38,774 nt of DNA. It comes from a virus. The notes beneath the pieces are model-generated. The model saw only the letters and a program-made list of their open reading frames with translations. It was not told the origin of the DNA and did no database searches. Shown here piece by piece: positions 6,751-20,453 of the stretch. A program made the translations under genes and the position numbers. The stretch lies in IMG/VR virus record IMGVR_UViG_3300020428_002788, positions 1 to 38,774 of that record; one strand, given 5' to 3'. Numbering within the stretch: the first letter of the stretch is position 1; the number at the start of each line of letters is the position of its first letter.

Positions 6751-7001
6751 TGATTGCTATACATAAAAGTTTAGATACTATTGACAATATACACGATAAA
6801 ACCTTTTATGGTTTAAGAACAGATTCAACAAGTAATTTGTCTGTAGATGTTATGAAATCAAATGACAGTAGTCCAATCGTCCTTCCAGACTCAGCGTATG
6901 CTAAAGATCCCGATGGATATAGACAGTATTTTTGGGCTAAAGATGCAATTACGTTTCGAATGAACACTAACACAGGACATCTGGAGATGGTTATTCTATG
7001 A
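6750..7001 (+). CDS. Small protein of unknown function in fibre operon
   Basis: An 83-aa protein translationally coupled on both sides: its ATG overlaps the preceding stop, and its stop overlaps the next ATG by 4 bp. It contains HDKTFYGLRTDSTSNLSVDV and ends ITFRMNTNTGHLEMVIL. The end could be a short beta hairpin of the sort used in virion adaptor proteins. I do not recognise the family. Context suggests a structural or assembly role with the 1377-aa protein that follows. Confidence 0.5.
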   Translation: MIAIHKSLDTIDNIHDKTFYGLRTDSTSNLSVDVMKSNDSSPIVLPDSAYAKDPDGYRQYFWAKDAITFRMNTNTGHLEMVIL

Positions 7002-10000
7002 CACAAGTAATCGATTTAGGAAAACTTAGGTTCTATTTTGCCGGTCAATACGCAAATAGTACAACCTACGAACAAAACGATGTAGTTAAATATGGCGGTA
7101 ACGTCTATGTCTACATTTACTCACTTAAAACTAGCGGAAATGCTCCCACTAATACAACCTATTGGAGGTTGATGATTGAGGGATTCTCATTTGACGGAAG
7201 ATGGGATTCTACTTCAACATTTAATATTGGTGACGGTGTAGCATACGGTGGTAAAGTTTTTGTAGCAGTAAAACAAAGTACGAATATTAAACCAACTGGA
7301 AGAGATTCATATTGGTCAACCTTTGCAGATGGTATTCAGTGGGAAGGCGATTACGGGACCGATTCATCTTATCAGAAAAACGATATTGTTAGATATGGAG
7401 GATCAACCTATATTGCAAAAGGTGATACAGCCGGAAATCTTCCAAGTAATGCTACATATTGGGATCAATTTGTCGAAGGTATTTCCTATCAAGCCGTTTA
7501 TAATAATGCAACCGCATATAAGAAAGATCATGTAGTTGCTTATGGTGCAAATCTTTATAAAGCAAAAACAGAAACCACAGGAAATATACCAACTAGCACA
7601 GCACATTGGGATCTTTACGTAGGCGGTACACAATTTAGAGGTGGATTCGATTCTTCTTCATCATACTTTCCTAATGATCTTGTAAGTAGAGGTGGTAATC
7701 TTTATAGAGCAAGAGTTGCAATATCAGGCACAGCACCTAATGCAGATTCAGATGCTAATTATAAAGTAGTAGTTTCCGGATTTCAATTTGATAGCGATTG
7801 GAGTTCAACAAAAGTATATGCACCAGGAACAACTGTAAGATTTGGTGGAAGTTTATGGAAATCTATTTCATCAGGTAAAAACCTTGAGCCACCTACTAAT
7901 GCCACATACTGGACAAAAATTGTTCCGGGATTTAAATTTAAAGGCGATTGGGCAACATCAACTGCTTATCAAGTTGATGATGTTGTAAGACATGGTGGTA
8001 ATTCATATATTGCAGTAACATCTCATGCTTCAACAACCTTTAAAGCAAATGAAACTTCTGGATATTGGACAAAATTTAACTCAGGAATTCGATTTAGAGG
8101 CGCATATGCTGGCGCAGCTAATTATAATAAAGATGATATTGTTACATCAAGCACATCTGCATATATTGTAGATAGTGATTATACTTCAACTGGAAACTTT
8201 GCAAATGATTTGGCTGCAGGTAAGTTTTCAATATTTGCTGCTGGGGATGCTTCAACTGGATTTCCAACAATTGCTGCTGGTGATGTAGGTAAGGTAATTG
8301 CTGTTAATAGTGCAGCAGGAGCTTATGAACTATCTTGGCCTGATGATGCATTAAATAATTTCTTTGTTTCGAAAGATCAAGGAACGGATGATTCTAATCA
8401 CGGTAGATCTAAAAACGCACCATTTAAAACCATACGGTTTGCATTAAATTATATTAATGCTAATACTACTGACGATTCTGCAGCTCACTTAGAAATTTCT
8501 GAAGGAAAATACGAAGAAATTCTTCCAATGACAGTTCCTCCTATGGTTTCTATTAGAGGTCAAGGATTACGTAATACTGAAATTGCTCCTGCAACAGGAT
8601 ATGATTCTGCTCTTAGTATGTTCTATCTTAATAATGGTAATCTTCTTGAAGGATTGCTTTTCACAGGTATGACAGGTGGACCAAATGGAATCTTATTTGA
8701 TTCAGCTGAGCCAGATAATTTAGAAGCTGCTTATGATTCTGATGCTACGTACCCAGGATCAGGTCATGCTGCTCGAACAATTAAAGGTGCATTCTTAAGA
8801 TTAGATCCTACTAGAAGAATTGCTACAAAATCGCCATACATTAAACACTGTTCAGCATTTTCAACTGGAGGAATTGGTGCAATTATTGATGGTAAACATC
8901 TATCAACCGATTCAACGACAATTGGTTCAATGGTGTTCCATGCATTTACTCAGATTCATTCAGATGGTATAGGATTCTGGTGTAGAAGAAATGGTAAATC
9001 AGAGATTGTTTCATGCTTCACTTACTATTGTAAATTTGGATATGCTTCAACAAAAGGTGGACAAATTAGAGCACTGAATGGAAATAACTCTTATGGAACT
9101 TATGGTGCTATAGGAGAAGGATTTGATTCAAGTGAAACTCCTGTAACAGGAAATGTTAGAGGAAATCAATTAACTTTTGTAGATGGATCTATTACTAATG
9201 GCGAATTTGAAAAGAACGATATTATTCAAACGCCAAGTAGATACGAAACACGCACACTTTCCAATATAACAAAAGGTGCTGTTGCACAATTCCAATTTAA
9301 ATCAGCACACAATCTTGTAGATAAAGATAGAATTAAAATCAATTCAATAAGTCCTGCTGGATGGGCCGCAAGTGTTACAGAAAATCAAGAATTATATGTA
9401 ACAAGAAATGATTCATTTAATGTTAGTGCGTATACAGATTCTTCAAGATCTATAGGTTATAACAGCTCAGCATTTGCTTCAGCTAGTACAAGCGCAGTAA
9501 CTATACAAGATCTTGTTCGTGCAAATCCAATGAGATTAACTGTTCTATCACATAACTTTGATAGCTTTAGTCTTGTAAAAATAACAGGTGTTGGTGGCAC
9601 AACACAAGCAAATGATAAGTATTATGTTGTTGACAGTAATACGTCAACTACCCTTAGATTAAAATCAGCAGAAAATAGTTATATAACAGTTACGGGCGAT
9701 TCAACTGGATATGCTTTATCAGGTAAATTCAGAGATACAACAACATCTCTTGTAAAAACTGGTGATAGCGCCATTAATGTTTGGAGAGGTTCAAGATACT
9801 ACTTTGTACAAGATAGTGCAGTAGCAAGAAATCCAATGTATATCACAACTGCAGATTCAAATAGTTGGATTATGAATACATTTGCAAGTGAATATACAAC
9901 TTCAGCATTTGGAAGAACAATTGGAAACTCAAGAGCAACGGGCGATTCAGATGGTACTGAAAATAGAAAACCACAAAACGCACGTACTTTAAAAGTTACA

Positions 10001-11131
10001 TTTGATTCAAATGCACCATCAACTCTTTACTTAGCATCTGGAAAATCAAAAGCTAACTTTAGACAAATTAATATAATTAATCCTCCATCGGTTGATGCTA
10101 CTAGTTATAGCGCATACACTTCTGGCGGAACAGTTACAATGGTAGATTCTGGTCTTGAACTTGATTCTGCTAAAATTGAAAAAGTAGGAACATCTGCGAC
10201 AGTAATCAACTCGCAAAATGCAATACAGATGTTGATTATTGATCAAATTAAAGGTTCTGGATTTAGAGGTGGTGATTCAATTGCTGAGTCTGGTGGAACA
10301 GTATTTGCCAAATTAAAAGCAGTTGATCCAGTTACTAACAACACAGGATTTACTTTAGCATTTAAAGGATTTTCAGCTAAGCCTAAAACAGGTGGTTCAT
10401 TAAGTTATGTGACTACTAACGGATTGGCTACTGATTCTGGATATGACTCAAACTCATACGTTATCCAATCAGTTACAGATTTTGAGTCAGCTGGTGGAAC
10501 ATGTGTCATTGTGTTTACTTCACAAAAAGATGGAACACTAACAAGAAGATGGGCATATGATAGCCAACCAGTAAAACTTAGATATAATTATTCGCAGGTC
10601 AGATTGACTGGCCACGATTTCTTAAACATCGGCTTTGGTAATAAAACTCAAACCAATTACCCTGGAACGCCAAGCGGCGCATTAGCTCAAGGTAATGAGG
10701 TTATTGAAAAAAATACTGGCCGTGTATACTTTGTCTCCACTGACCAAGATGGTAATTTTAGAGTAGGTAACTACTTCCGGATTGATCAGGCGACCGGTAG
10801 AGCAACTCTTGATGCTTCTGCCTTTGACCTTGCAGGTCTAACTTCATTAAGACTTGGTTCCATTGGAGCTAAACTTGGTGAAACTATTAATGAATTTTCA
10901 TCAGATGGATCACTTGCTGGAAATTCAAATATAGCTGTTCCGACTGAACAGGCCGTTAAGACTTATGTCGACGGTCAAATTGTGGCTAATGTGACTAAGT
11001 CATTACCAACCAGTGCACAAACTGGAGGGATAGCAACGGAACAATTTATTGGATTTGATATTGGAAGATTCGGCAGAGACGACGAATTTCTCAGTCTTCA
11101 ATCCGCAAAACAACTTAGAAACAAAACTTAG
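6998..11131 (+). CDS. Giant structural protein with CBM5/12-like repeats and beta-helix
   Basis: A 1377-aa protein. Residues about 14-410 hold eight repeats of about 53 aa in the pattern F.G.y...t.Y...DvV.ygg..Y.a.......P.....YW, which resembles the chitin-binding CBM5/12 fold. Residues about 453-720 look like a right-handed beta-helix of pectin-lyase type: KDQGTDDSNHGRSKNAPFKT, then ISEGKYEEILPM and VSIRGQG. The C-terminal part carries FVSTDQDGNFRVG and VPTEQAVKTYVDGQI, a signature typical of T4-like marine phage fibres. The whole architecture fits a baseplate-linked fibre or tailspike that contacts surface polysaccharide. No catalytic residues can be assigned. It has only five cysteines, unlike the following genes. 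Confidence 0.7.
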   Translation: MTQVIDLGKLRFYFAGQYANSTTYEQNDVVKYGGNVYVYIYSLKTSGNAPTNTTYWRLMIEGFSFDGRWDSTSTFNIGDGVAYGGKVFVAVKQSTNIKPTGRDSYWSTFADGIQWEGDYGTDSSYQKNDIVRYGGSTYIAKGDTAGNLPSNATYWDQFVEGISYQAVYNNATAYKKDHVVAYGANLYKAKTETTGNIPTSTAHWDLYVGGTQFRGGFDSSSSYFPNDLVSRGGNLYRARVAISGTAPNADSDANYKVVVSGFQFDSDWSSTKVYAPGTTVRFGGSLWKSISSGKNLEPPTNATYWTKIVPGFKFKGDWATSTAYQVDDVVRHGGNSYIAVTSHASTTFKANETSGYWTKFNSGIRFRGAYAGAANYNKDDIVTSSTSAYIVDSDYTSTGNFANDLAAGKFSIFAAGDASTGFPTIAAGDVGKVIAVNSAAGAYELSWPDDALNNFFVSKDQGTDDSNHGRSKNAPFKTIRFALNYINANTTDDSAAHLEISEGKYEEILPMTVPPMVSIRGQGLRNTEIAPATGYDSALSMFYLNNGNLLEGLLFTGMTGGPNGILFDSAEPDNLEAAYDSDATYPGSGHAARTIKGAFLRLDPTRRIATKSPYIKHCSAFSTGGIGAIIDGKHLSTDSTTIGSMVFHAFTQIHSDGIGFWCRRNGKSEIVSCFTYYCKFGYASTKGGQIRALNGNNSYGTYGAIGEGFDSSETPVTGNVRGNQLTFVDGSITNGEFEKNDIIQTPSRYETRTLSNITKGAVAQFQFKSAHNLVDKDRIKINSISPAGWAASVTENQELYVTRNDSFNVSAYTDSSRSIGYNSSAFASASTSAVTIQDLVRANPMRLTVLSHNFDSFSLVKITGVGGTTQANDKYYVVDSNTSTTLRLKSAENSYITVTGDSTGYALSGKFRDTTTSLVKTGDSAINVWRGSRYYFVQDSAVARNPMYITTADSNSWIMNTFASEYTTSAFGRTIGNSRATGDSDGTENRKPQNARTLKVTFDSNAPSTLYLASGKSKANFRQINIINPPSVDATSYSAYTSGGTVTMVDSGLELDSAKIEKVGTSATVINSQNAIQMLIIDQIKGSGFRGGDSIAESGGTVFAKLKAVDPVTNNTGFTLAFKGFSAKPKTGGSLSYVTTNGLATDSGYDSNSYVIQSVTDFESAGGTCVIVFTSQKDGTLTRRWAYDSQPVKLRYNYSQVRLTGHDFLNIGFGNKTQTNYPGTPSGALAQGNEVIEKNTGRVYFVSTDQDGNFRVGNYFRIDQATGRATLDASAFDLAGLTSLRLGSIGAKLGETINEFSSDGSLAGNSNIAVPTEQAVKTYVDGQIVANVTKSLPTSAQTGGIATEQFIGFDIGRFGRDDEFLSLQSAKQLRNKT
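7037..8230 (+). repeat. Eight tandem CBM5/12-like repeats within CDS
   Basis: Each unit is about 53 codons. It begins with an F/W/Y-x-G-x-Y/W strand, then S-x-Y-x2-x-D-x-V, Y/H-GG-x-x-Y and P-x8-YW. The last unit (FRGAYAGAANYNKDDIV) is degenerate. The DNA repeats are diverged. Confidence 0.65.
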
Positions 11132-11143
11132 GAGTAAAAAATT

Positions 11144-11569
11144 ATGGCGACTGTAGATACAGTAAAAACCGCGCTGGTCAACAAGCTTGAAACTTCGATT
11201 GCCTCCTCAACACCGGAACAATTAGCTTATATTGCAAAAGCAGTAAATTCAATTGAGCCACCTATTGCTTGGGAATCGAAAGACAGCAATTTCACCGCGA
11301 CGAACTATAGAGGATATTTTATAAATACAACTAACGGACAAGTAATTATTACCATGCCGTCAGTCTCGGGAAACACTGTTGGAGATGGAAGAGTTAACGT
11401 CGTTGACGTTAAACAAAATTTCCAAACAAATCACGTTCTCCTAAGACCAAATGGCACAGATAAGATTCTTGGTCAAGACAGTGATATTATTGTCGACACC
11501 ATGGGATCAGCACTTCAAATGGTATGGTCAGGAGCAACAGACGGCTGGCAATTCTTAGTCCAAGGTTAA
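11144..11569 (+). CDS. Fibre-tip-type domain protein
   Basis: A 141-aa protein. Residues 1-35 look helical (VDTVKTALVNKLETSIASST). The rest matches a domain often found at the ends of marine phage fibres: FTATNYRGYFINTT, VIITMPS, GDGRVNVVDVKQNFQTNHVLLRPNG, then ALQMVWSGATDGWQFL. Here it is a free-standing protein between the 1377-aa structural protein and the Cys-rich array, so it may cap or connect fibres. It has a good ribosome site (AGGAG). Moderately confident that it is a virion component. Confidence 0.6.
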   Translation: MATVDTVKTALVNKLETSIASSTPEQLAYIAKAVNSIEPPIAWESKDSNFTATNYRGYFINTTNGQVIITMPSVSGNTVGDGRVNVVDVKQNFQTNHVLLRPNGTDKILGQDSDIIVDTMGSALQMVWSGATDGWQFLVQG

Positions 11570-11589
11570 TTCAATAGAAGGAGCTGAGA

Positions 11590-12543
11590 ATGGCTAAGTA
11601 TTTAAAAGATAAGATCAGATATGGTCTTCAAGACGATATGATGTATGAAGGTTGGTGTTCGTGGGAAATGAGCCACATGGTTCAAAACGTGTATACAACT
11701 GACAATTGCGGATATAATCGTCATAGAACACATTGGTGCGTTCCATTTGGTGTTGGTTGTGCTATGTTTGAAATTTGGGGTGGCGGAGGCTATGGAACAG
11801 GTACTGAATGTTGTTCTGTATCAACTCCTCATGGATCCGGCGCTTACTCTAAGAAAACAATACCAGTATTTGGCGGAGAATGTTATTTTATACATGTAGG
11901 ATATTCTCATTGCTGCCAATCAGGCAGAGGAACAAAAAATGCTTCTGGCGGAAATAGAGAAAGAGCGAGAGACACTTACGTTATAGGTAGAGGACTATCA
12001 AACTTTTGTGCTGAAGTCGGCTACAGCGGTGTGAATTTGTGTAATTTTAAAAATCAATTCGATTCAGCAAGCGCTCCAGCTGCTGGAGGAGCATTTAAAA
12101 GAACATCTACTAATACAACTATGACAGGCGATTCAGCATCGTACTATTGTCAATACACTGCATTAGATTCAGGATGTGCTAAAGCGTATGGTGGAGACTA
12201 TATGACTCATGGACTTCCTGGGTTTATTATGCTTCCAGCTGATTCAAATCATACATTTGCAAATGCGGCTAATCATCCATGTGCTTATAAAGTTGGTGTA
12301 CCATACCCAGGTGGAGTTTTTGGATGTAAAGCAGGACATTTAGTACATTTCTTTTGTTCTGGTGCCGGTCTTGGTGGACACGATGTTCAAAACAATGCTA
12401 TTATGGGTGCTGGATTTGGTTGTGCATGTAATGCTAACTTCTTAGAAGCTGGATGGGGCATGGCAGGTAGTTGGAGTGACGGAAGTAGTTGTTGTTGCTC
12501 AGGACCAGCAAGACCCGGTAAAGTGAGAATCACTTACAGATAA
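11590..12543 (+). CDS. Cysteine- and glycine-rich adhesin-like protein A1
   Basis: A 317-aa protein with 21 cysteines (6.6%). The N-terminal 60 residues are followed by CAMFEIWGGGGYGTG, a CC pair, and GSGAYSKKT, a glycine-rich beta pattern found in phage fibre-tip proteins. A central stretch reads NFCAEVGYSG, and a PYPGGVFGCKAGH region follows. The C-terminus ends CCCSGPARPGKVRITYR. It is the first of four consecutive genes sharing this layout and is closest to A2 at 15265. The ribosome site is GAAGGAG. By context it is probably a virion adhesin. Whether the cysteines form disulfides or bind metal is unknown. I know no named family for it. Confidence 0.6.
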   Translation: MAKYLKDKIRYGLQDDMMYEGWCSWEMSHMVQNVYTTDNCGYNRHRTHWCVPFGVGCAMFEIWGGGGYGTGTECCSVSTPHGSGAYSKKTIPVFGGECYFIHVGYSHCCQSGRGTKNASGGNRERARDTYVIGRGLSNFCAEVGYSGVNLCNFKNQFDSASAPAAGGAFKRTSTNTTMTGDSASYYCQYTALDSGCAKAYGGDYMTHGLPGFIMLPADSNHTFANAANHPCAYKVGVPYPGGVFGCKAGHLVHFFCSGAGLGGHDVQNNAIMGAGFGCACNANFLEAGWGMAGSWSDGSSCCCSGPARPGKVRITYR

Positions 12544-12555
12544 AGGAATTTAAAT

Positions 12556-13920
12556 ATGGCTAAGCATATATCGCATTTTTCACCAGGGAATCAGGATTAT
12601 CAAGCAACGAATGACTGGTGTGAATTTATGGCATTAGATCAGACTTGCTCGCCGGCAAGTCACCGAGATGCACAATATGGAAATGCATGTAATAGATTCT
12701 GTATGCCTACCGGATTTGGCATGAATAACGATAGAAAAAAGTGTAATAGAGAAGCCAGAGTTGTAAAATATGGAATAAAATCTGGTGGTGGAGGAGCTTG
12801 GGGAAGCTGCTGTTGTATGTGGGGAGACCCAGCTGGAGGAGGAGCTTATATTCAAGGATGTCTTCCATCCGTTCCCGGTGAAGTATATTGCTATGTAGTA
12901 GCAATGGGCGCATGTTGTACGCCGGCGGATCATACATACGGATGCTTTTCTGGATTATGGTCACCAACACATTTTAATTGTGGCACGTGTGTTATGGGCG
13001 GCTATTGCGGTTCTAGTTCATGCTACTATAGTTATTGTTGTCAAGACCAAACAAATAATGCCGATTATAATAAAGTTTATTTAGGAGGTACTGCATACGA
13101 TTCAGCTGACATTCATAATGCAACAACTGGTCGAACACTTACTTCATGCGCCGGTACTCATGCAATTCTAAGACACGCAGGCCATACAATATATAAAGCC
13201 AATTGTGTATGCGGTACATATCGACCCGGTATGACTAATAGTACAGGCACATGTGTCCGAGGTATGGGATATGAAATAGGTTTACAACCTTCTTGGCGCG
13301 GTTTAAGTGATCCAGTTGACGATTGGAATCATATTCCGTATGGTGGGCATTGTTTTCCACATTGGCATAATAGGGCTAGTGATAAACCTAATAGAGAAAA
13401 TAAAACTACAGCTGGATTCCAATGTAATTATCAAAGAAATTTTAAAGCTCATACCTCAAATCATCAATCGCACGCATGTTCAACAGGATGTTGTTCTGCC
13501 GAAGGCGAATGTGTAATGAGATTATGTTCTATGTATGTATTTCATAGAGGTTTTACTATAACAGATTGTCACTATGGGTGTTCTGACTGGGATTGTAATA
13601 CAAGACCATATTCAAATAGCGGTGAAGGCGAATTTAATAGAGGAACTGGGCATGCTACAACTGGTCCAAACTGGAGACACTTTCCATATATAAATGCGTC
13701 AAGGGCGTGTGGTGGATTTAACTGGACCGGGTGGTATCAATGTGCTTGGGGTATGGGAGATGGTGGTCATTGTGAATATGGACCTCACTTTGATGGAATA
13801 GGTGGAGTGCCAGCAAACGTATGTGGCGGACCATGTTGTTGTGGTGGTCCTCCTGTTAGAGGCCATGTTATTTTAAAATATAGAAATACTAACGAAGCTG
13901 CATCCGGAAGGGAGTTATAA
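12556..13920 (+). CDS. Cysteine- and glycine-rich adhesin-like protein B1
   Basis: A 454-aa protein with 40 cysteines (8.8%), an extreme share for a phage protein. The N-terminal part has DYQATNDWCEFMALDQTC, then SGGGGAWGSCCC and GGGAYIQGC, then many CC, CxC and CxxC pairs (GACC, CVCG, STGCC). The end has CGGFNWTGWYQCAWG and CGGPCCCGGPPVRGHVILKYR. It is closely paralogous to B2, the next gene, and shares the glycine block and triple-Cys tail with A1 and A2. Its stop overlaps the start of B2 (TAATG). No signal peptide is seen. Probably an adhesin or fibre-tip protein. Confidence 0.6.
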   Translation: MAKHISHFSPGNQDYQATNDWCEFMALDQTCSPASHRDAQYGNACNRFCMPTGFGMNNDRKKCNREARVVKYGIKSGGGGAWGSCCCMWGDPAGGGAYIQGCLPSVPGEVYCYVVAMGACCTPADHTYGCFSGLWSPTHFNCGTCVMGGYCGSSSCYYSYCCQDQTNNADYNKVYLGGTAYDSADIHNATTGRTLTSCAGTHAILRHAGHTIYKANCVCGTYRPGMTNSTGTCVRGMGYEIGLQPSWRGLSDPVDDWNHIPYGGHCFPHWHNRASDKPNRENKTTAGFQCNYQRNFKAHTSNHQSHACSTGCCSAEGECVMRLCSMYVFHRGFTITDCHYGCSDWDCNTRPYSNSGEGEFNRGTGHATTGPNWRHFPYINASRACGGFNWTGWYQCAWGMGDGGHCEYGPHFDGIGGVPANVCGGPCCCGGPPVRGHVILKYRNTNEAASGREL

Positions 13921-15230
13921 TGGCAAGACATTTATCAAATTATTTGAGTGGCTATCAAGACTATGCATCTGTTCCTGATTGGTGTGAATTTATTAATCTT
14001 GAAAATAGATGTGAAGGCGGAAGTTATTACGAAGTTATTTATGGATCAAGCTGTAGTAGATGGTGCGCTCCATTATCAGATGCAGGAAGAAAATTAGCAG
14101 GCAAAGGAAAAAACTTTTCAAAAAAACCTGGGATTCCAGCTTCAGGAAATGGTGATGATGGTAAAAGATACGAAGGATATGCTGCAGTAGAAATTCAATC
14201 TACTGGCGGATGGGGCGGTGGCGGATGTTGTTGTACACAACCTTCTTCAGGCGGAGGCCAAGGAATATGGGTAAAAGAATGTCATAAAATGTACCCAGGC
14301 TATTTTGCGTGTTTTGTAACACCTCACCCTGGATGTTGTAGAACTGATATAAATGGGTGTCATGGATGTTGGTCTTTATATAGAAATCAAGCAGAAGCCC
14401 AATCAATGTGTGCTGAAGGCGGTTGGTGTGGAGGAACACACTGTTTTTCAATGTACTGTTGCGTAGACCAAACTTTTAATAGTGCACAATGGTGTACAGG
14501 AAATGATTGCGCAGCTGGATCTCAAGTTCCAAAATATGGAGCTCCAAGTGATCCCGCAGCAGGCGCCGGATATCATATTAATAATGGTGCACAAATTCAT
14601 ACTATATTCTTTAGATCTTGTCAAAACAACATAGGCAATTGTGCTAAAGAAGGATTTAACTCTGAACGAGCTCATGGAAGAATGCCATGGTTAGCTAATC
14701 CTACAGATAATGTAGGTGGAAATAGCATTCCATGTGGTGTGATGTGTCAAGAGCAAAAAACTTGGAATAATAGGTATAAAGGTTGGAACGGTAATGAAAC
14801 AAGCCTAGGCGAGCATTGTGGTGCAGCAGCACATTGCCAAAGATATCACACAACTGCTAGAGCATACGAACATGCTTGGGGATCTGCAGGTTGGACTGGA
14901 AGAGAATGTTTTGCAGGATGTATCGGTGAAAATTGCGGTGTAAAAATTATTGTAGGTGCTCCCGGAAGGGCTGGAAACATAGGAACCCAAACTAGAAAAG
15001 TAAGTGGAAATTCATGGGAAATAGTGCCTTTTATTAATAGTGCAAATACTTGCGGTGGGTTTGAACATATTCGCTGGCATATGTGTGCATGGGGAAATGT
15101 CGGTGACGTTGGTTGCCAACAAAATATAAGAGATGCTGGAAGAGGTGGTATACCAACAGCAGTATGCGGACAACCTTGTTGTTGCGGTGGTCAGCCGGGA
15201 CCGGGTGTAACTTTAATTAGATATAGATAA
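13920..15230 (+). CDS. Cysteine- and glycine-rich adhesin-like protein B2
   Basis: A 436-aa protein with 36 cysteines (8.3%), a paralogue of B1. Shared blocks include YQDYASVPDWCEF, WGGGGCCC, GGWCGGTHC-x4-CC-x-DQT, CGGFEHIRWHMCAWG and GGIPTAVCGQPCCCGGQPGPGVTLIRYR. Between these anchors the two proteins differ greatly. B2 has an extra lysine/glycine-rich stretch near residues 60-85 that B1 lacks. Conserved frame with divergent loops is what one expects of receptor-binding proteins under diversifying selection. It is translationally coupled to B1 and followed 9 bp later by a late promoter. Confidence 0.6.
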   Translation: MARHLSNYLSGYQDYASVPDWCEFINLENRCEGGSYYEVIYGSSCSRWCAPLSDAGRKLAGKGKNFSKKPGIPASGNGDDGKRYEGYAAVEIQSTGGWGGGGCCCTQPSSGGGQGIWVKECHKMYPGYFACFVTPHPGCCRTDINGCHGCWSLYRNQAEAQSMCAEGGWCGGTHCFSMYCCVDQTFNSAQWCTGNDCAAGSQVPKYGAPSDPAAGAGYHINNGAQIHTIFFRSCQNNIGNCAKEGFNSERAHGRMPWLANPTDNVGGNSIPCGVMCQEQKTWNNRYKGWNGNETSLGEHCGAAAHCQRYHTTARAYEHAWGSAGWTGRECFAGCIGENCGVKIIVGAPGRAGNIGTQTRKVSGNSWEIVPFINSANTCGGFEHIRWHMCAWGNVGDVGCQQNIRDAGRGGIPTAVCGQPCCCGGQPGPGVTLIRYR

Positions 15231-15239
15231 TACGTTTTG

Positions 15240-15247
15240 TATAAATA
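15240..15247 (+). promoter_or_regulatory. T4-type late promoter TATAAATA
   Basis: An exact consensus in the 34-bp gap between B2 and A2, 18 bp upstream of the ATG at 15265. It gives the last adhesin gene its own late transcript. Confidence 0.75.
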
Positions 15248-15264
15248 GATTATAGAGGATAAAA

Positions 15265-16203
15265 ATGGCAAAGAACTTAAGAACTTTATTACCCGTTACC
15301 GATATGGCCGTTGGTCGAATGAAAGGTTCGTCGCTTTTTTGGAAGCCCGGGCCTGAAGGCTGGGAGTCCGGTGGTGCTAGAAAATGTAGTACATATAATG
15401 CTAATTCCGCTACAAGATCAATTGACAGATTTCATTGGGCTGTTCCTGCAGATACTAGAATAGCTACTTTTGAAATTTGGGGTGGCGGAGGAAGCGGCGG
15501 TGGTGCTTGGTGTTGCCAACAAGGTATTCCCGGAGGTTCAGGAGCTTATGCAAGAAAAACTGTTAAAGTAAATGCAAATGATACATATGTATTTTGTACT
15601 TGTACAGCAGTTCATTGTTGTTATGCAACTCAAAACAATCACAGTTGTGGTAAAAGAGGCGGAAAAACTTACGTTGTAGGTAATGGATTAAATAACTTTT
15701 GTGCAGAAGGTGGAAATGCTGGATTAGCATGTTGCTTTTTCTTTAGCTCATATAGACATAACGAATATATGTATATGTGTGATCTAGTTGGAAGATCTAT
15801 TGGAGATTCTGATAATGATGTTCATAATAGAGCATGTTTTTATGGAACTAATCATGGGACAAGAGGTGTGTATGGATGGGCTCAAACGGGCTGTTGTGGT
15901 TCTGATTATGGATCAGATGCACACATTTGCGCAATGAAAACAGGAGTTCCTTTCCCAGGTGGTTTATTTATGTGGGGTAGAGCACTAAGAGGCGGAGTTG
16001 TTCATAAAGGATTATCATACGGATGTTCATGTTACTATGATATTCATGACGGATGTTCTGGAAGATCAGCACATAGTACAATTGGCGGAGGTTGGTATGC
16101 AAGGCTTCCCGGAGAAGGAGGAACTACTGCTATGGTTCAAGGCGGACCGTGCTGTTGCGGATCACAAGGGGCCTATGGGGCTGTAAGAGTAACTTGGGAG
16201 TAA
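15265..16203 (+). CDS. Cysteine- and glycine-rich adhesin-like protein A2
   Basis: A 312-aa protein with 22 cysteines (7.1%), a paralogue of A1. Shared blocks are TFEIWGGGGSGGG with a CC pair, PGGSGAYARKT, TYVVGNGLNNFCAEGGNAG, GVPFPGGLF and the tail GGPCCCGSQGAYGAVRVTWE. The N-terminus (NLRTLLPVTDMAVGRMKGSS) differs from A1. It has its own late promoter and a GAGG ribosome site. The gene 3 bp downstream may serve it. Probably a virion adhesin; biochemical function unproven. Confidence 0.6.
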   Translation: MAKNLRTLLPVTDMAVGRMKGSSLFWKPGPEGWESGGARKCSTYNANSATRSIDRFHWAVPADTRIATFEIWGGGGSGGGAWCCQQGIPGGSGAYARKTVKVNANDTYVFCTCTAVHCCYATQNNHSCGKRGGKTYVVGNGLNNFCAEGGNAGLACCFFFSSYRHNEYMYMCDLVGRSIGDSDNDVHNRACFYGTNHGTRGVYGWAQTGCCGSDYGSDAHICAMKTGVPFPGGLFMWGRALRGGVVHKGLSYGCSCYYDIHDGCSGRSAHSTIGGGWYARLPGEGGTTAMVQGGPCCCGSQGAYGAVRVTWE

Positions 16204-16206
16204 TAA

Positions 16207-16935
16207 ATGATTAAGACTACAAAACAATTTACATATAAACTACCTGATGATTATACTCTTCAAACAAATGAAGCAGATTCTTCAGGAACTTGGACATACA
16301 AAGGCCCAAGATATTACGCATGTTATATAAATTCCGGTGGATTTGTTGATACATTTTCGCAAATTTCAGAACCAGAAGACTTAGTAGATAGATCTTCTAG
16401 TGATGATAATATTGCAGCAAATTTTGTTGTTGACGCTAACACTAGTCAAGGCGCTTTACTTGCTTCTATATTTGTTGGAAATCCAGATTCAGATACATCT
16501 GATTCGTCAGTGTTTCCTCATATTTCAATACCAACTCCAAATGGAACAGTTTATAAAAGACCTCATCCAACGCAACCCGATCATACATATGAAAAAAACA
16601 AAATTAAATATGATTTAAATAATGACAAATGGAATGAACCATTTCCTTGGTTTAAACCGTTTATGAAATGGGAAGGAATTGAAGGATGGGTCAAAACTTC
16701 TCGAAAGCTATTTGAAGAAACTCAGGCCGATAGTGCAGGATGGAATGCTTTAACAACTGCTAAGAAAAAAGAATGGACTGATTGGGATAGTGATATGGCA
16801 AACGCTATTAAAAATTATAAAGCTGCAGGATTAAAGCCACACCATATTGTGATTATAGATCCTCCGGGCGTAAGAGATGATGTTTATGATCCTAGCAAAC
16901 CAACACATGATAGTAACGGCAATCCCGTAACATAA
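16207..16935 (+). CDS. Unknown protein after adhesin array, possible fibre-assembly factor
   Basis: A 242-aa protein starting 3 bp after the A2 stop. It opens MIKTTKQFTYKLPDDYTLQT, contains WTYKGPRYYACYINSGGF, and has a central acidic and serine-rich stretch (PEDLVDRSSSDDN). The C-terminal half is tryptophan-rich: NDKWNEPFPWFKPFMKWEGIEG, then a helical region ending AIKNYKAAGLKPHHIVIIDPP. It has a single cysteine, unlike its upstream neighbours. I do not recognise the family. In many phages a chaperone or tail-fibre assembly gene directly follows the receptor-binding gene, so an assembly role is a context-only guess. Confidence 0.5.
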   Translation: MIKTTKQFTYKLPDDYTLQTNEADSSGTWTYKGPRYYACYINSGGFVDTFSQISEPEDLVDRSSSDDNIAANFVVDANTSQGALLASIFVGNPDSDTSDSSVFPHISIPTPNGTVYKRPHPTQPDHTYEKNKIKYDLNNDKWNEPFPWFKPFMKWEGIEGWVKTSRKLFEETQADSAGWNALTTAKKKEWTDWDSDMANAIKNYKAAGLKPHHIVIIDPPGVRDDVYDPSKPTHDSNGNPVT

Positions 16936-16989: not shown

Positions 16990-17023
16990 ATTAATATACA
17001 ATTTACACGTGAGGTGCAATACA

Positions 17024-17977
17024 GTGGAAAAAAGATCTTCAGCATTTTTTATGAATGGTGGGGCAGGAAGAGTTCTTAGCTCAATACCCGCATTCGAAAT
17101 TTACGAAAAAGAAAATCCAGATGATGATTTTATCATTGTTTGTGAAGGCGGCATGGAAATGCTTGCTGGTCATCCTACTCTTCATAAGAGATGCTTTGAC
17201 AATTGGCATAAAGATCTCTTTGAAAAATACATCAAACACAGACATTGTATTACTTTAGAACCATATAGAATATGGGAATACTATAATCAAAAAGCTTCTA
17301 TTACCCAAGCATTTGATATTCAAATGTCAAATAAAGGCGTAAGAGATCTTGGTGATCCTACTATCTATTTAAGTTCTATTGAATCCGCAGAAGGTTATAA
17401 TATCATAAAAGATGTGAAAGAAAAATCTGCAAAACAACGTGTTATAGCAATGCAACCTTATGGAAGAAGTTCACAAAGAGTAGGTGAAGAATTAATTGAT
17501 GTAGGTGGAAGATCTTTTAGAACTCAAGATGTAGTAAAGATTGTTAAAAAACTACAACAAAAATATGCTATAATTATGATGACAGAGCACCCTGCTGATT
17601 TTCAAAAAATGGGATGTCCTGATCCAGTAGCCCAACCAGAAGGTGCGCCGTTAAGGATATGGGGTGGAATTATTAAAGCTGCAGATTGTTTTCTTGGATG
17701 CGATAGTGTTGGACAACACATGGCCTATGCTTTAGGGACTCCTGCTGTAGTTTGTATTGGAGCTACGTTTCAAGAAAATATCAGTTATCCAGATAGTAAA
17801 AAGTTTCAAGTTCTTGATTTAGGAGGCGATAAACGAGTTTACGATCCAATTCGTATTTCAATGGAAGATGAAAAAATGCGTACCAACGATGGCATTATGT
17901 CTTTATCTGATGCTGCAGTAAATGAAATTGTAAAAGAGATAGATACAATAGTATCTAATAACCTTAGAGGAAAATAA
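17024..17977 (+). CDS. GT9-like glycosyltransferase (heptosyltransferase-type)
   Basis: About 317 aa from GTG 17024, chosen because GAGGT lies 8 nt upstream; an in-frame GTG at 17009 precedes that ribosome site and is unlikely. The opening FFMNGGAGRVLSSIPAFEIYEK fits the glycine loop of GT-B enzymes. Residues 220-239, ADCFLGCDSVGQHMAYALGTP, match the C-terminal signature of GT9 (LPS heptosyltransferase family), where the Asp in G-x-DS-G and the following His/Met-Ala region bind ADP-heptose. The next strand is VVCIGATFQ. It is first in a coupled operon with the carbamoyltransferase and dioxygenase, next to genes for ADP-heptose synthesis. A heptosyltransferase role is a well-supported inference; other NDP-sugars are possible. 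Confidence 0.6.
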   Translation: MEKRSSAFFMNGGAGRVLSSIPAFEIYEKENPDDDFIIVCEGGMEMLAGHPTLHKRCFDNWHKDLFEKYIKHRHCITLEPYRIWEYYNQKASITQAFDIQMSNKGVRDLGDPTIYLSSIESAEGYNIIKDVKEKSAKQRVIAMQPYGRSSQRVGEELIDVGGRSFRTQDVVKIVKKLQQKYAIIMMTEHPADFQKMGCPDPVAQPEGAPLRIWGGIIKAADCFLGCDSVGQHMAYALGTPAVVCIGATFQENISYPDSKKFQVLDLGGDKRVYDPIRISMEDEKMRTNDGIMSLSDAAVNEIVKEIDTIVSNNLRGK

Positions 17978-19854
17978 TGACTGAAGAAATTAATATGACG
18001 CCCGATATTCCACAACGAGATCTTTGGATTGCAGGAGTTTCAAGAGGACATAATTCTTGTGTTTGCTTATTGAAAAATGGTGAAGTTGTTTTTGCTATTG
18101 AAGAAGAAAGACTTACTCGTCGAAAATATGATGGAGCACCATTAGCTGCATTGAATATGATTTTTGATTATACTAAAAAATTAGATTATTTAGTTCTTGT
18201 ACATACTCAAGGGTTAGAAGTCGGAGGCCACCTTGAATTTACGGGTGAAGATGTATATACTGGATGGGCAAGAAAAATGGGATTGATTGATGATAGTGCT
18301 CAATGGTCACAAGATGGTCATCCTCAAATTATTGAAATATCGGATAGACATCATAAAATGCATGCAGCGTGTGCTTTTTATAGATCTGGGTTTGAAGACG
18401 CAGTAGCTCTTATTGCAGATGGCGCCGGTTCTATGCTTCCATATCATGACCAAATGAGAGGTCAAAGATCAGTATGGGAATATGAAACTATTATGGAATG
18501 CTCATATCCTGCAATATTTAAAACTAGGTATAAGCACGTTGGATGCGCTGATCCAATATTTCCAAGATGGGATCCTAAAGTTGATGGTGAATTTTGTGGA
18601 GAGCCGGGAAATGAAATTTCTATAATGAACGATGATAGAGGTGGAATCACTAAAACATACGAAGCAGTTACTCAATATTTAGGGTGGCAACCTATTGAAG
18701 CAGGTAAAACTATGGGGTTGTTTCCTTATGGAATCGAGAATGGTACACTTCCTCCATTTTTTGACGAATGGTCAAAAATGCCGGGTTCTTTTAATAGAAA
18801 CGTATTTATGCCAAATACCCCTAATGGAGCTTTCGTGAATACTGGTTTTTATGAACAGTTTCAAACAAGTGAAGAAGAAATGGAAGCTGCTAAAGGCGAT
18901 TTTACTAAATTGCAAGTTGGTAGAGATGTCGCATTTAAGGTGCAAAAAGAAACGCAGCGCGAAATGATTAAGCTTATTAAACACGCAGTAGAAATGACAG
19001 GAAAAACAAATGTTGTTATTTCCGGTGGATATGCTCTTAATTGTGTTGCTAATTATGAATATCTTGATGCATTAAAAGAAGAAGGCATTACGATATATGT
19101 CGAACCAGTATCAAGTGACGCAGGAACTGCAATTGGCGGTGCGCTATTTCAACACTATGCGTTAACAAACGAAGACACTATTAGAGATTATGGAAAAACT
19201 CTTTACTTAGGACCCGAATATAATATTGATCATAAAAAAGTTCAAGATGTTTTGCCTGAGAATGGTGTGGTTGTAGACACAGATGATGATGAAGTTGTTG
19301 AACTTTTAACGCAAAAAAATATTGTTTGTGTGTGGCAAGGTAGATCAGAAAACGGTCCTCGCGCGCTCGGGAATAGAAGTATATTATTTGATCCAACGTT
19401 TGCAGACGGAAAGGATTACGTTAATGCAATTAAAAGGCGTGAATATTTTAGGCCGTTTGCAGGAAGTATTTTAGAAGAAGATGTTCATGATTGGTTTGAT
19501 TTAAGAGGAATGGAAAGATCTTCACATATGATGTATGCTGTTAATTGTCAACCTGGGATTGAAGAAAAAATTCCTAGCATTATTCATATAGATGGATCTT
19601 GTAGAATACAAACTGTAAATAAAGAAGAAAATCCTCTTTATCACCAGCTTATTAGTAAGTTTAAAGAAAAAACTGGCGTTCCAATTGTATTTAATACTAG
19701 CTTTAACTTAGGTGGAGAACCTCTTGTTGAAACATTAGAAGATGCAATAAGAACTCTTGAAAACTCTGATCTTGAATACCTTTACTTGCCTGAGCTTAAG
19801 CTAATGATTAATATACCAAATGCAAATGAGGATGCTAGTGGTGAAATATTATGA
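17977..19854 (+). CDS. NodU/TobZ-family O-carbamoyltransferase, full length
   Basis: A 625-aa protein, normal length for this family. The N-terminal Kae1-like (ASKHA) domain has VSRGHNSCVCLL-NGEVVFAIEEERLTRRK, the metal-binding HHKMHA (His125, His126, His129), ADGAGS (147-152) and SGGYALN (349-355). The C-terminal domain carries the hallmark GRSENGPRALGNRS (455-468), REYFRPFAGSIL and VFNTSFNLGGEP. TobZ-type enzymes use carbamoyl phosphate and ATP to make carbamoyl-AMP, then move the carbamoyl group to a hydroxyl of a sugar or small molecule. Its ATG overlaps the preceding stop (TAATG), and its 3' end overlaps the dioxygenase start. With heptose genes nearby, a heptose acceptor is attractive; a nucleotide acceptor is the main alternative. 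Confidence 0.9.
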   Translation: MTEEINMTPDIPQRDLWIAGVSRGHNSCVCLLKNGEVVFAIEEERLTRRKYDGAPLAALNMIFDYTKKLDYLVLVHTQGLEVGGHLEFTGEDVYTGWARKMGLIDDSAQWSQDGHPQIIEISDRHHKMHAACAFYRSGFEDAVALIADGAGSMLPYHDQMRGQRSVWEYETIMECSYPAIFKTRYKHVGCADPIFPRWDPKVDGEFCGEPGNEISIMNDDRGGITKTYEAVTQYLGWQPIEAGKTMGLFPYGIENGTLPPFFDEWSKMPGSFNRNVFMPNTPNGAFVNTGFYEQFQTSEEEMEAAKGDFTKLQVGRDVAFKVQKETQREMIKLIKHAVEMTGKTNVVISGGYALNCVANYEYLDALKEEGITIYVEPVSSDAGTAIGGALFQHYALTNEDTIRDYGKTLYLGPEYNIDHKKVQDVLPENGVVVDTDDDEVVELLTQKNIVCVWQGRSENGPRALGNRSILFDPTFADGKDYVNAIKRREYFRPFAGSILEEDVHDWFDLRGMERSSHMMYAVNCQPGIEEKIPSIIHIDGSCRIQTVNKEENPLYHQLISKFKEKTGVPIVFNTSFNLGGEPLVETLEDAIRTLENSDLEYLYLPELKLMINIPNANEDASGEIL

Positions 19855-20453
19855 TGTGGTTAATAAATCCCGAAGAGCAATCGGCATATAGCTGGGGATT
19901 TAATAATGCTTTAACAGATGAAGGTTGGAAGTCTTTAAACGACTATATTGCTGCTAATCCAACATCAAAGGCAGAGATATTAAATCCACAAGTTGACGAC
20001 AAAGCTTTTAAAGAAAAAGAAGTTCGTGATACTGATATAACGTGGATTAGCAGTGAAAATGAAATTTCAAAACCGTTGTATTTTAATATAGGAAAACTCG
20101 CTGAAGAGGCAAATAACGTTTTTTTTAACTATAATTTGTCAATGGTTGAAACGCTTCAGTATTCAGTATATAATGCTCCGACTGGTCATTATGATTGGCA
20201 TATAGATGCTATGCACAAAGGCCAACATGGACTTACGCGAAAAATTTCGTTTAGTATTGGATTAAATGATCCTAGTGAATATGAAGGCGGTGAATTAATT
20301 ATTGGTGCGCCAGGAATGTATGAAACTTCACACAAATTAGAAAAAAATCAAATTGTATTTTTTAATTCAATAGTAACTCATAAAGTTACACCTGTAACCA
20401 AAGGAGTTAGAAAATCTCTTGTTGGTTGGATTAAAGGTCCAAATTTCGTTTAA
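19851..20453 (+). CDS. 2-oxoglutarate/Fe(II)-dependent dioxygenase
   Basis: A 200-aa protein with the prolyl-4-hydroxylase-like double-stranded beta-helix. Iron ligands are His117 and Asp119 in YDWHIDA and His177 in THKVTPV. Arg187, ten residues later (KGVRKSL), would bind the 2-oxoglutarate carboxylate. Between them sit LTRKISFSIGLND and YEGGELI, as in PKHD-type hydroxylases. ATGA overlap couples it to the carbamoyltransferase, and its stop overlaps the convergent phosphatase gene by 4 bp. It is probably a hydroxylase acting in the same pathway, for instance making or editing the hydroxyl that is carbamoylated. The substrate cannot be read from sequence. Confidence 0.85.
   Translation: MMWLINPEEQSAYSWGFNNALTDEGWKSLNDYIAANPTSKAEILNPQVDDKAFKEKEVRDTDITWISSENEISKPLYFNIGKLAEEANNVFFNYNLSMVETLQYSVYNAPTGHYDWHIDAMHKGQHGLTRKISFSIGLNDPSEYEGGELIIGAPGMYETSHKLEKNQIVFFNSIVTHKVTPVTKGVRKSLVGWIKGPNFV

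Follow-up and report, generated by a model that had tools for sequence, protein, structure and literature searches.

The window analyzed here, meaning the whole stretch of DNA under study, is a 38.8-kb virus record that carries terminase, sheath, portal, and major head genes. An array of four cysteine-rich genes (A1, B1, B2, and A2) and its immediate surroundings comprise the following features:

6998..11131, plus strand: tail fiber protein (1,377 aa, 5 Cys; PHROG 9851 tail fiber, E = 1e-198)
11144..11569, plus strand: small conserved protein with baseplate/tail-type similarity (141 aa, no Cys)
11320..11327, plus strand: TATAAATA, T4-type late-promoter-like site (exact match, inside the gene before A1)
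11590..12543, plus strand: A1, cysteine-rich tip-like protein, first slot (317 aa, 21 Cys, 6.6%)
12556..13920, plus strand: B1, cysteine-rich tip-like protein, middle slot (454 aa, 40 Cys, 8.8%)
13920..15230, plus strand: B2, cysteine-rich tip-like protein, second middle copy (436 aa, 36 Cys, 8.3%)
15240..15247, plus strand: TATAAATA, late-promoter-like site (exact match, just upstream of A2)
15265..16203, plus strand: A2, cysteine-rich tip-like protein, last slot (312 aa, 22 Cys, 7.1%)
16207..16935, plus strand: putative tail fiber assembly chaperone, PHROG 9740 (242 aa, 1 Cys)

The four adjacent genes at 11590-16203 encode 1,519 residues with 119 cysteines, and our recount agrees exactly with the figures of an earlier model-made annotation of this DNA (here, the sequence-only reading). 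The rest of the window contains 86 cysteines in 10,813 residues (0.8%; 33 other ORFs examined), and at this background rate the chance of finding at least 119 in the array is about 1e-75. The low cysteine content that the same reading had remarked on in the neighbors is also borne out (0.36% in the upstream fiber, zero in the small gene before A1), as are the GGGG motif and the CCC tail near the C terminus, both present in all four array proteins. Total glycine is 14 to 18%. The genes are closely spaced on the plus strand, each is preceded by a Shine-Dalgarno-like sequence, and the start of B2 shares one base with the stop of B1. The window holds 10 exact TATAAATA sites against 5.3 expected, 9 of them on the plus strand, a count reached in 2 of 100 shuffles; the sites at 11320 and 15240 may be chance occurrences, and the enrichment is no evidence of function.

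The small protein at 11144..11569, which is 77 to 79% identical to its relatives, has weak matches to PHROG 9648 (tail) and PHROG 958 (baseplate wedge) and a match to PF07880 T4_gp9_10_N below the cutoff (E = 0.008); it could be an adaptor between fiber and tips. The N-terminal part of the upstream fiber (6998-11131) contains CBM_5/12 repeats (PF02839 CBM_5_12, E = 9.9e-16). Beyond the cassette, positions 17009-20453 encode a PHROG 8954 protein, then a carbamoyltransferase of the Nol-like type and a 2OG-Fe(II) oxygenase; a PHROG 8954 counterpart and the carbamoyltransferase, which may modify surface sugars, occupy the same place in S-CAM1, S-CAM3, P-SSM2, and close contigs.

Scanning viral contigs with an alignment of the A proteins yielded 78 loci, which together with loci from single-protein searches, annotated phages, and the window itself made 85 sets, many of them near-duplicates. 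Homologous arrays occur in the 84 other loci, each with two to six cysteine-rich ORFs unless the contig ends within the array. Cysteine makes up 5.7 to 13% of the family ORFs (median, 9.3%), the lower bound being set by our gathering cutoff of >5% Cys, and none of the examined loci contained a low-cysteine ORF with a WGGG-type core. Cultured carriers are S-CAM1, S-CAM3, P-SSM2, P-SSM5, S-SSM7 (three proteins, 10.6 to 11.5% Cys), S-SSM6a, and Sf-FS3. The PHROG 4205 profile is matched by A1 (E = 2.2e-32), A2 (E = 7.9e-39), and all 128 A-type proteins; B1 and B2 had no match in the PHROG profile search. Outside the window, members of the B family turned up in just three other contigs, whose B proteins align with B1; the cultured phages searched had none. 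No window protein reached the cutoff of PF21722 Gly_rich_2; A1, B2, and A2 had no Pfam match at all, and the single match of B1 was weak and unrelated. Among 128 family members, 54 match PF21722 at E ≤ 0.1, and two S-SSM7 proteins score above the curated cutoff. Sequence searches for solved structures related to A or B returned none.

The homologs in S-CAM1, S-CAM3, and P-SSM2 are annotated only as hypothetical, and a search of the available literature library on cysteine-rich cyanophage fiber proteins found no report. A search of cellular genomes recovered the family in one contig, assigned to a Euryarchaeota MAG (PAOW01000006); positions 217-2930 hold two cysteine-rich genes, a partner-like gene, and a carbamoyltransferase. 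It carries the same phage cassette and is probably a misbinned phage contig. The family is real, widespread, and so far unannotated.

The unit is not confined to the four genes. It reaches at least to the gene at 16207-16935, an extension that the sequence-only reading overlooked: members of this family sit next to the array in 80 of 85 loci, and in the remaining five the contig runs out inside the array or shortly beyond it. In P-SSM2 and in two contig loci (L044 and L072), the partner gene lies between, or alternates with, the cysteine-rich genes. The window partner protein itself has no Pfam match, whereas 7 of 25 aligned partner homologs match PF16778 Phage_tail_APC at E ≤ 0.1 (best, 1.8e-12); two of three homologs tested singly exceed the PF16778 cutoff, as does the S-SSM7 gene, and others match tail fiber assembly PHROGs. 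These relatives, together with its position, point to the 16207-16935 product as a putative chaperone.

Within the window, A1 and A2 are 29% identical (E = 6e-18) and B1 and B2 are 30% identical (E = 4e-38), while A and B have only the N-terminal half in common (profile comparison, 99.3% probability, 142 columns). The order A-B-B-A had been interpreted as a mirrored duplication, and our tree overturns this for A: because A1 and A2 fall in separate deep clades, each orthologous across phages and forming its own clade over four contigs with full support (A1, 100/100), the array order is not a mirror. Related six-gene arrays (L011 to L013) instead repeat as A1-B-A2-A1-B-A2; slots 1 and 4, 2 and 5, and 3 and 6 cluster, with moderate support at the inner forks and one group open, which fits a doubled A1-B-A2 unit. 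Copies in P-SSM2, L044, and L072 cluster within each phage, so either the arrays were apparently multiplied repeatedly or their copies are homogenized. In line with the diversification that the sequence-only reading proposed, the B genes diverge much more than neighboring genes: between the window and locus L002, B genes are 34 to 36% identical and the partner gene 44% identical, compared with 69 to 79% for three neighboring genes. Close pairs from three-gene arrays have dN/dS mostly between 0.05 and 0.35, indicating strong constraint on these proteins, and showed no gene-wide positive selection.

Conservation of the cysteines among close homologs, on which the sequence-only reading depended, is high. 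Across 40 independent close pairs (70 to 97% identity), 98.1% of cysteines are kept, making cysteine the most conserved residue; the figure is 95.9% for glycine and 88.6% for all residues together. In the whole alignments of both A and B, the columns holding cysteine likewise rank first in conservation, though alignment scoring favors cysteine and the close pairs are the safer test. Adjacent CC pairs are strongly enriched (z = 28), as is CxC, while CxxC is not (z = −1.3), a pattern that fits disulfide-rich loops better than common zinc-ribbon sites. Counts of cysteines showed no parity signal for disulfides in 162 proteins (87 even, 75 odd), a difference of a single cysteine often separates close relatives (17 of 40 pairs), and a co-loss test gave no overall signal of paired losses; A2 residues 157/222 and 118/133 provide a hint of pairing, with three co-changes each. 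Given the odd counts, single-cysteine differences, and unpaired losses, the aligned sequences suggest that not all cysteines sit in conserved within-chain disulfides, leaving room for bonds between chains or for some free cysteines. A search of six phage records recovered no thioredoxin; glutaredoxins are common, yet they are expected for ribonucleotide reduction.

Structure prediction used single chains. The A2 model (mean pLDDT, 74; pTM, 0.78; 119 sequences) has the Pam3 fiber 7ypx as its first match (Z = 16.4, rmsd 3.1, 192 aligned; Foldseek E = 1.9e-5), well above the next rows, which are the Bxb1 tail tip (Z = 11.8) and the glycine-rich domains of ALK/LTK (Z about 8 to 9). In a viral model library, the best matches are the S-CAM3 and P-SSM2 homologs, followed by glycine-rich-domain proteins. 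A2 is accordingly predicted to be a TNF-like sandwich with glycine-rich loops, a fold of the Pam3 gp24 type, in agreement with the adhesin-like character first proposed from the sequence. The B2 model is poor (pLDDT, 50), and its best match is again the Pam3 fiber (Z = 10.9, rmsd 7.3, 177 aligned), so that B may share this fold.

Because of the A2 fold match, the PF21722 matches, and the adjoining chaperone-type gene, we consider it likely that the array encodes fiber-tip adhesins accompanied by a chaperone and that the family is a cysteine-rich variant of a known fiber-tip fold, a function we infer from fold and synteny. On this view, a T4-like marine phage would use the four genes to make paralogous, probably distal, tail fiber tips, whose folding the chaperone-like 16207-16935 product would assist. 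Each would consist of a conserved N-terminal segment and a TNF-like beta-sandwich with glycine-rich loops at one end, where they could contact the host surface; placement in the virion and receptor binding are inferred from these resemblances, and no proteome was found that shows the array proteins in a virion. Relative to known glycine-rich tips, much of the glycine is gone and cysteine is abundant. The most likely role of these cysteines would be to staple the loops through disulfides inside each subunit, and perhaps from one subunit to another, with bonds that arise or are finished once the cell has lysed. Taken alone, we give this disulfide step roughly even chances.

An extension of the fiber-tip reading would make the array a set of different subunits of hetero-oligomeric TNF-like tips, covalently locked by inter-subunit disulfides, with B as an exchangeable, fast-evolving subunit, as opposed to the usual homotrimer. 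The period-three six-gene arrays (A1-B-A2 twice) would suit such a tip, as would the fact that no untruncated locus has just one such gene, but the existence of two-gene arrays speaks against a fixed A1-B-A2 triplet, and we regard the proposal as unlikely.

The main alternative retains fiber-tip proteins and assigns their cysteines to metal binding (zinc, copper, or iron-sulfur) with no disulfides. The abundance of cysteine along with some histidine (5.1% in B1), the enrichment of both CC and CxC, and the tolerance of single-cysteine changes all suit this alternative, and the long-fiber tips of T4 bind iron. Nevertheless, the CxxC spacing typical of many zinc and iron-sulfur sites shows no enrichment, and substitutions are spread over many residues; metal binding without disulfides appears to us a minority prospect. 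It is similarly improbable that the array proteins are made in the infected cell and act outside the virion, for example as folding helpers like T4 gp38. In its favor, two related glycine-rich proteins of Syn9, gp38 and gp39, carry the annotation tail fiber assembly, six family members match a PHROG of that name, and sequenced relatives are only hypothetical; against this, the predicted structure is that of a fiber tip, unlike known chaperones, and a separate chaperone-type gene is present. Free cysteines that react with host surface thiols or disulfides at adsorption would agree with the missing parity and co-loss signals, but this idea has no positive evidence in its favor, and oxygenated seawater would presumably tend to oxidize free thiols; we consider it very unlikely. 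A composition artifact or misread frames can be dismissed, given the chance of about 1e-75 for the cysteine count, the conservation across 84 other loci, and the dN/dS of close family relatives, which lies far below 1 and supports coding.

In many marine T4-like phages, two to six related genes with a predicted fiber-tip fold and unusually high cysteine content stand in a row. They occur in many viral contigs as well as in cultured phages of Synechococcus and Prochlorococcus, under the label hypothetical. Should they prove to be fiber tips, they would probably help determine the host range of ocean phages. That cysteine is the most conserved residue of proteins made in a reducing cytoplasm raises the question of whether these are disulfide-rich or metal-rich receptor binders, and of where they mature.

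Known systems offer several points of comparison. The extracellular glycine-rich (TG) domain of ALK/LTK combines TNF-like and glycine-rich folds as A2 does (Z about 8 to 9), and since these are animal receptors the likeness is one of fold only. The adhesin gp38 of Salmonella phage S16 bears glycine-rich receptor-binding loops on the fiber tip and resembles the array by description (PMC9608196); it is absent from the structural matches listed. In Syn9, the glycine-rich proteins gp36, gp38, and gp39 hold the same position as the array, after the tail fiber gene; gp38 and gp39 match PF21722, and gp36 has the EIWG core in common along with CYGC and CSGC loops. Unlike the array proteins, all three contain 0.8 to 2.5% Cys and 22 to 35% Gly. 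Syn9 gp39 (11150-12328 of the Syn9 locus) resembles a doubled glycine-rich region of gp38, its two copies linked via a segment in another frame.

Pam3 gp24 forms a trimer. It has a helical docking domain at the N terminus, a TNF-like domain, and a domain rich in glycine, whose variable distal loops are proposed to bind the receptor (PMC9608196). Together with its chaperone gp25 (PDB 7YPX, 7YFW; PMC9608196), it resembles the array in its TNF-like sandwich with a glycine-rich end, its GGGG core, and an assembly-type gene immediately downstream of the tip gene, and like Syn9 gp38 it also matches PF21722. It differs in being a single gene rather than an array and in composition, with 1 Cys and 22.5% Gly over the whole protein, compared to 7 to 9% Cys and 14 to 18% Gly in the array; its glycine-rich domain reaches 39% Gly, while the array proteins all keep the GGGG core at their lower total. 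No sequence relation was found between gp25 and the window partner gene, and the long docking helix of gp24 is missing from the A2 model and the array proteins. Two P-SSM2 proteins (11782-12852 and 13581-14648 of the P-SSM2 locus) have longer N termini with a coiled-coil-like look reminiscent of that helix. The PHROG 4205 and 35878 proteins of S-CAM1, S-CAM3, and P-SSM2 (T4-GC 299 and 301) form arrays of three or two genes in which no B family was found, unlike the window, and share with it homologous sequence, a cysteine content of 8 to 11.6%, and the same gene order.
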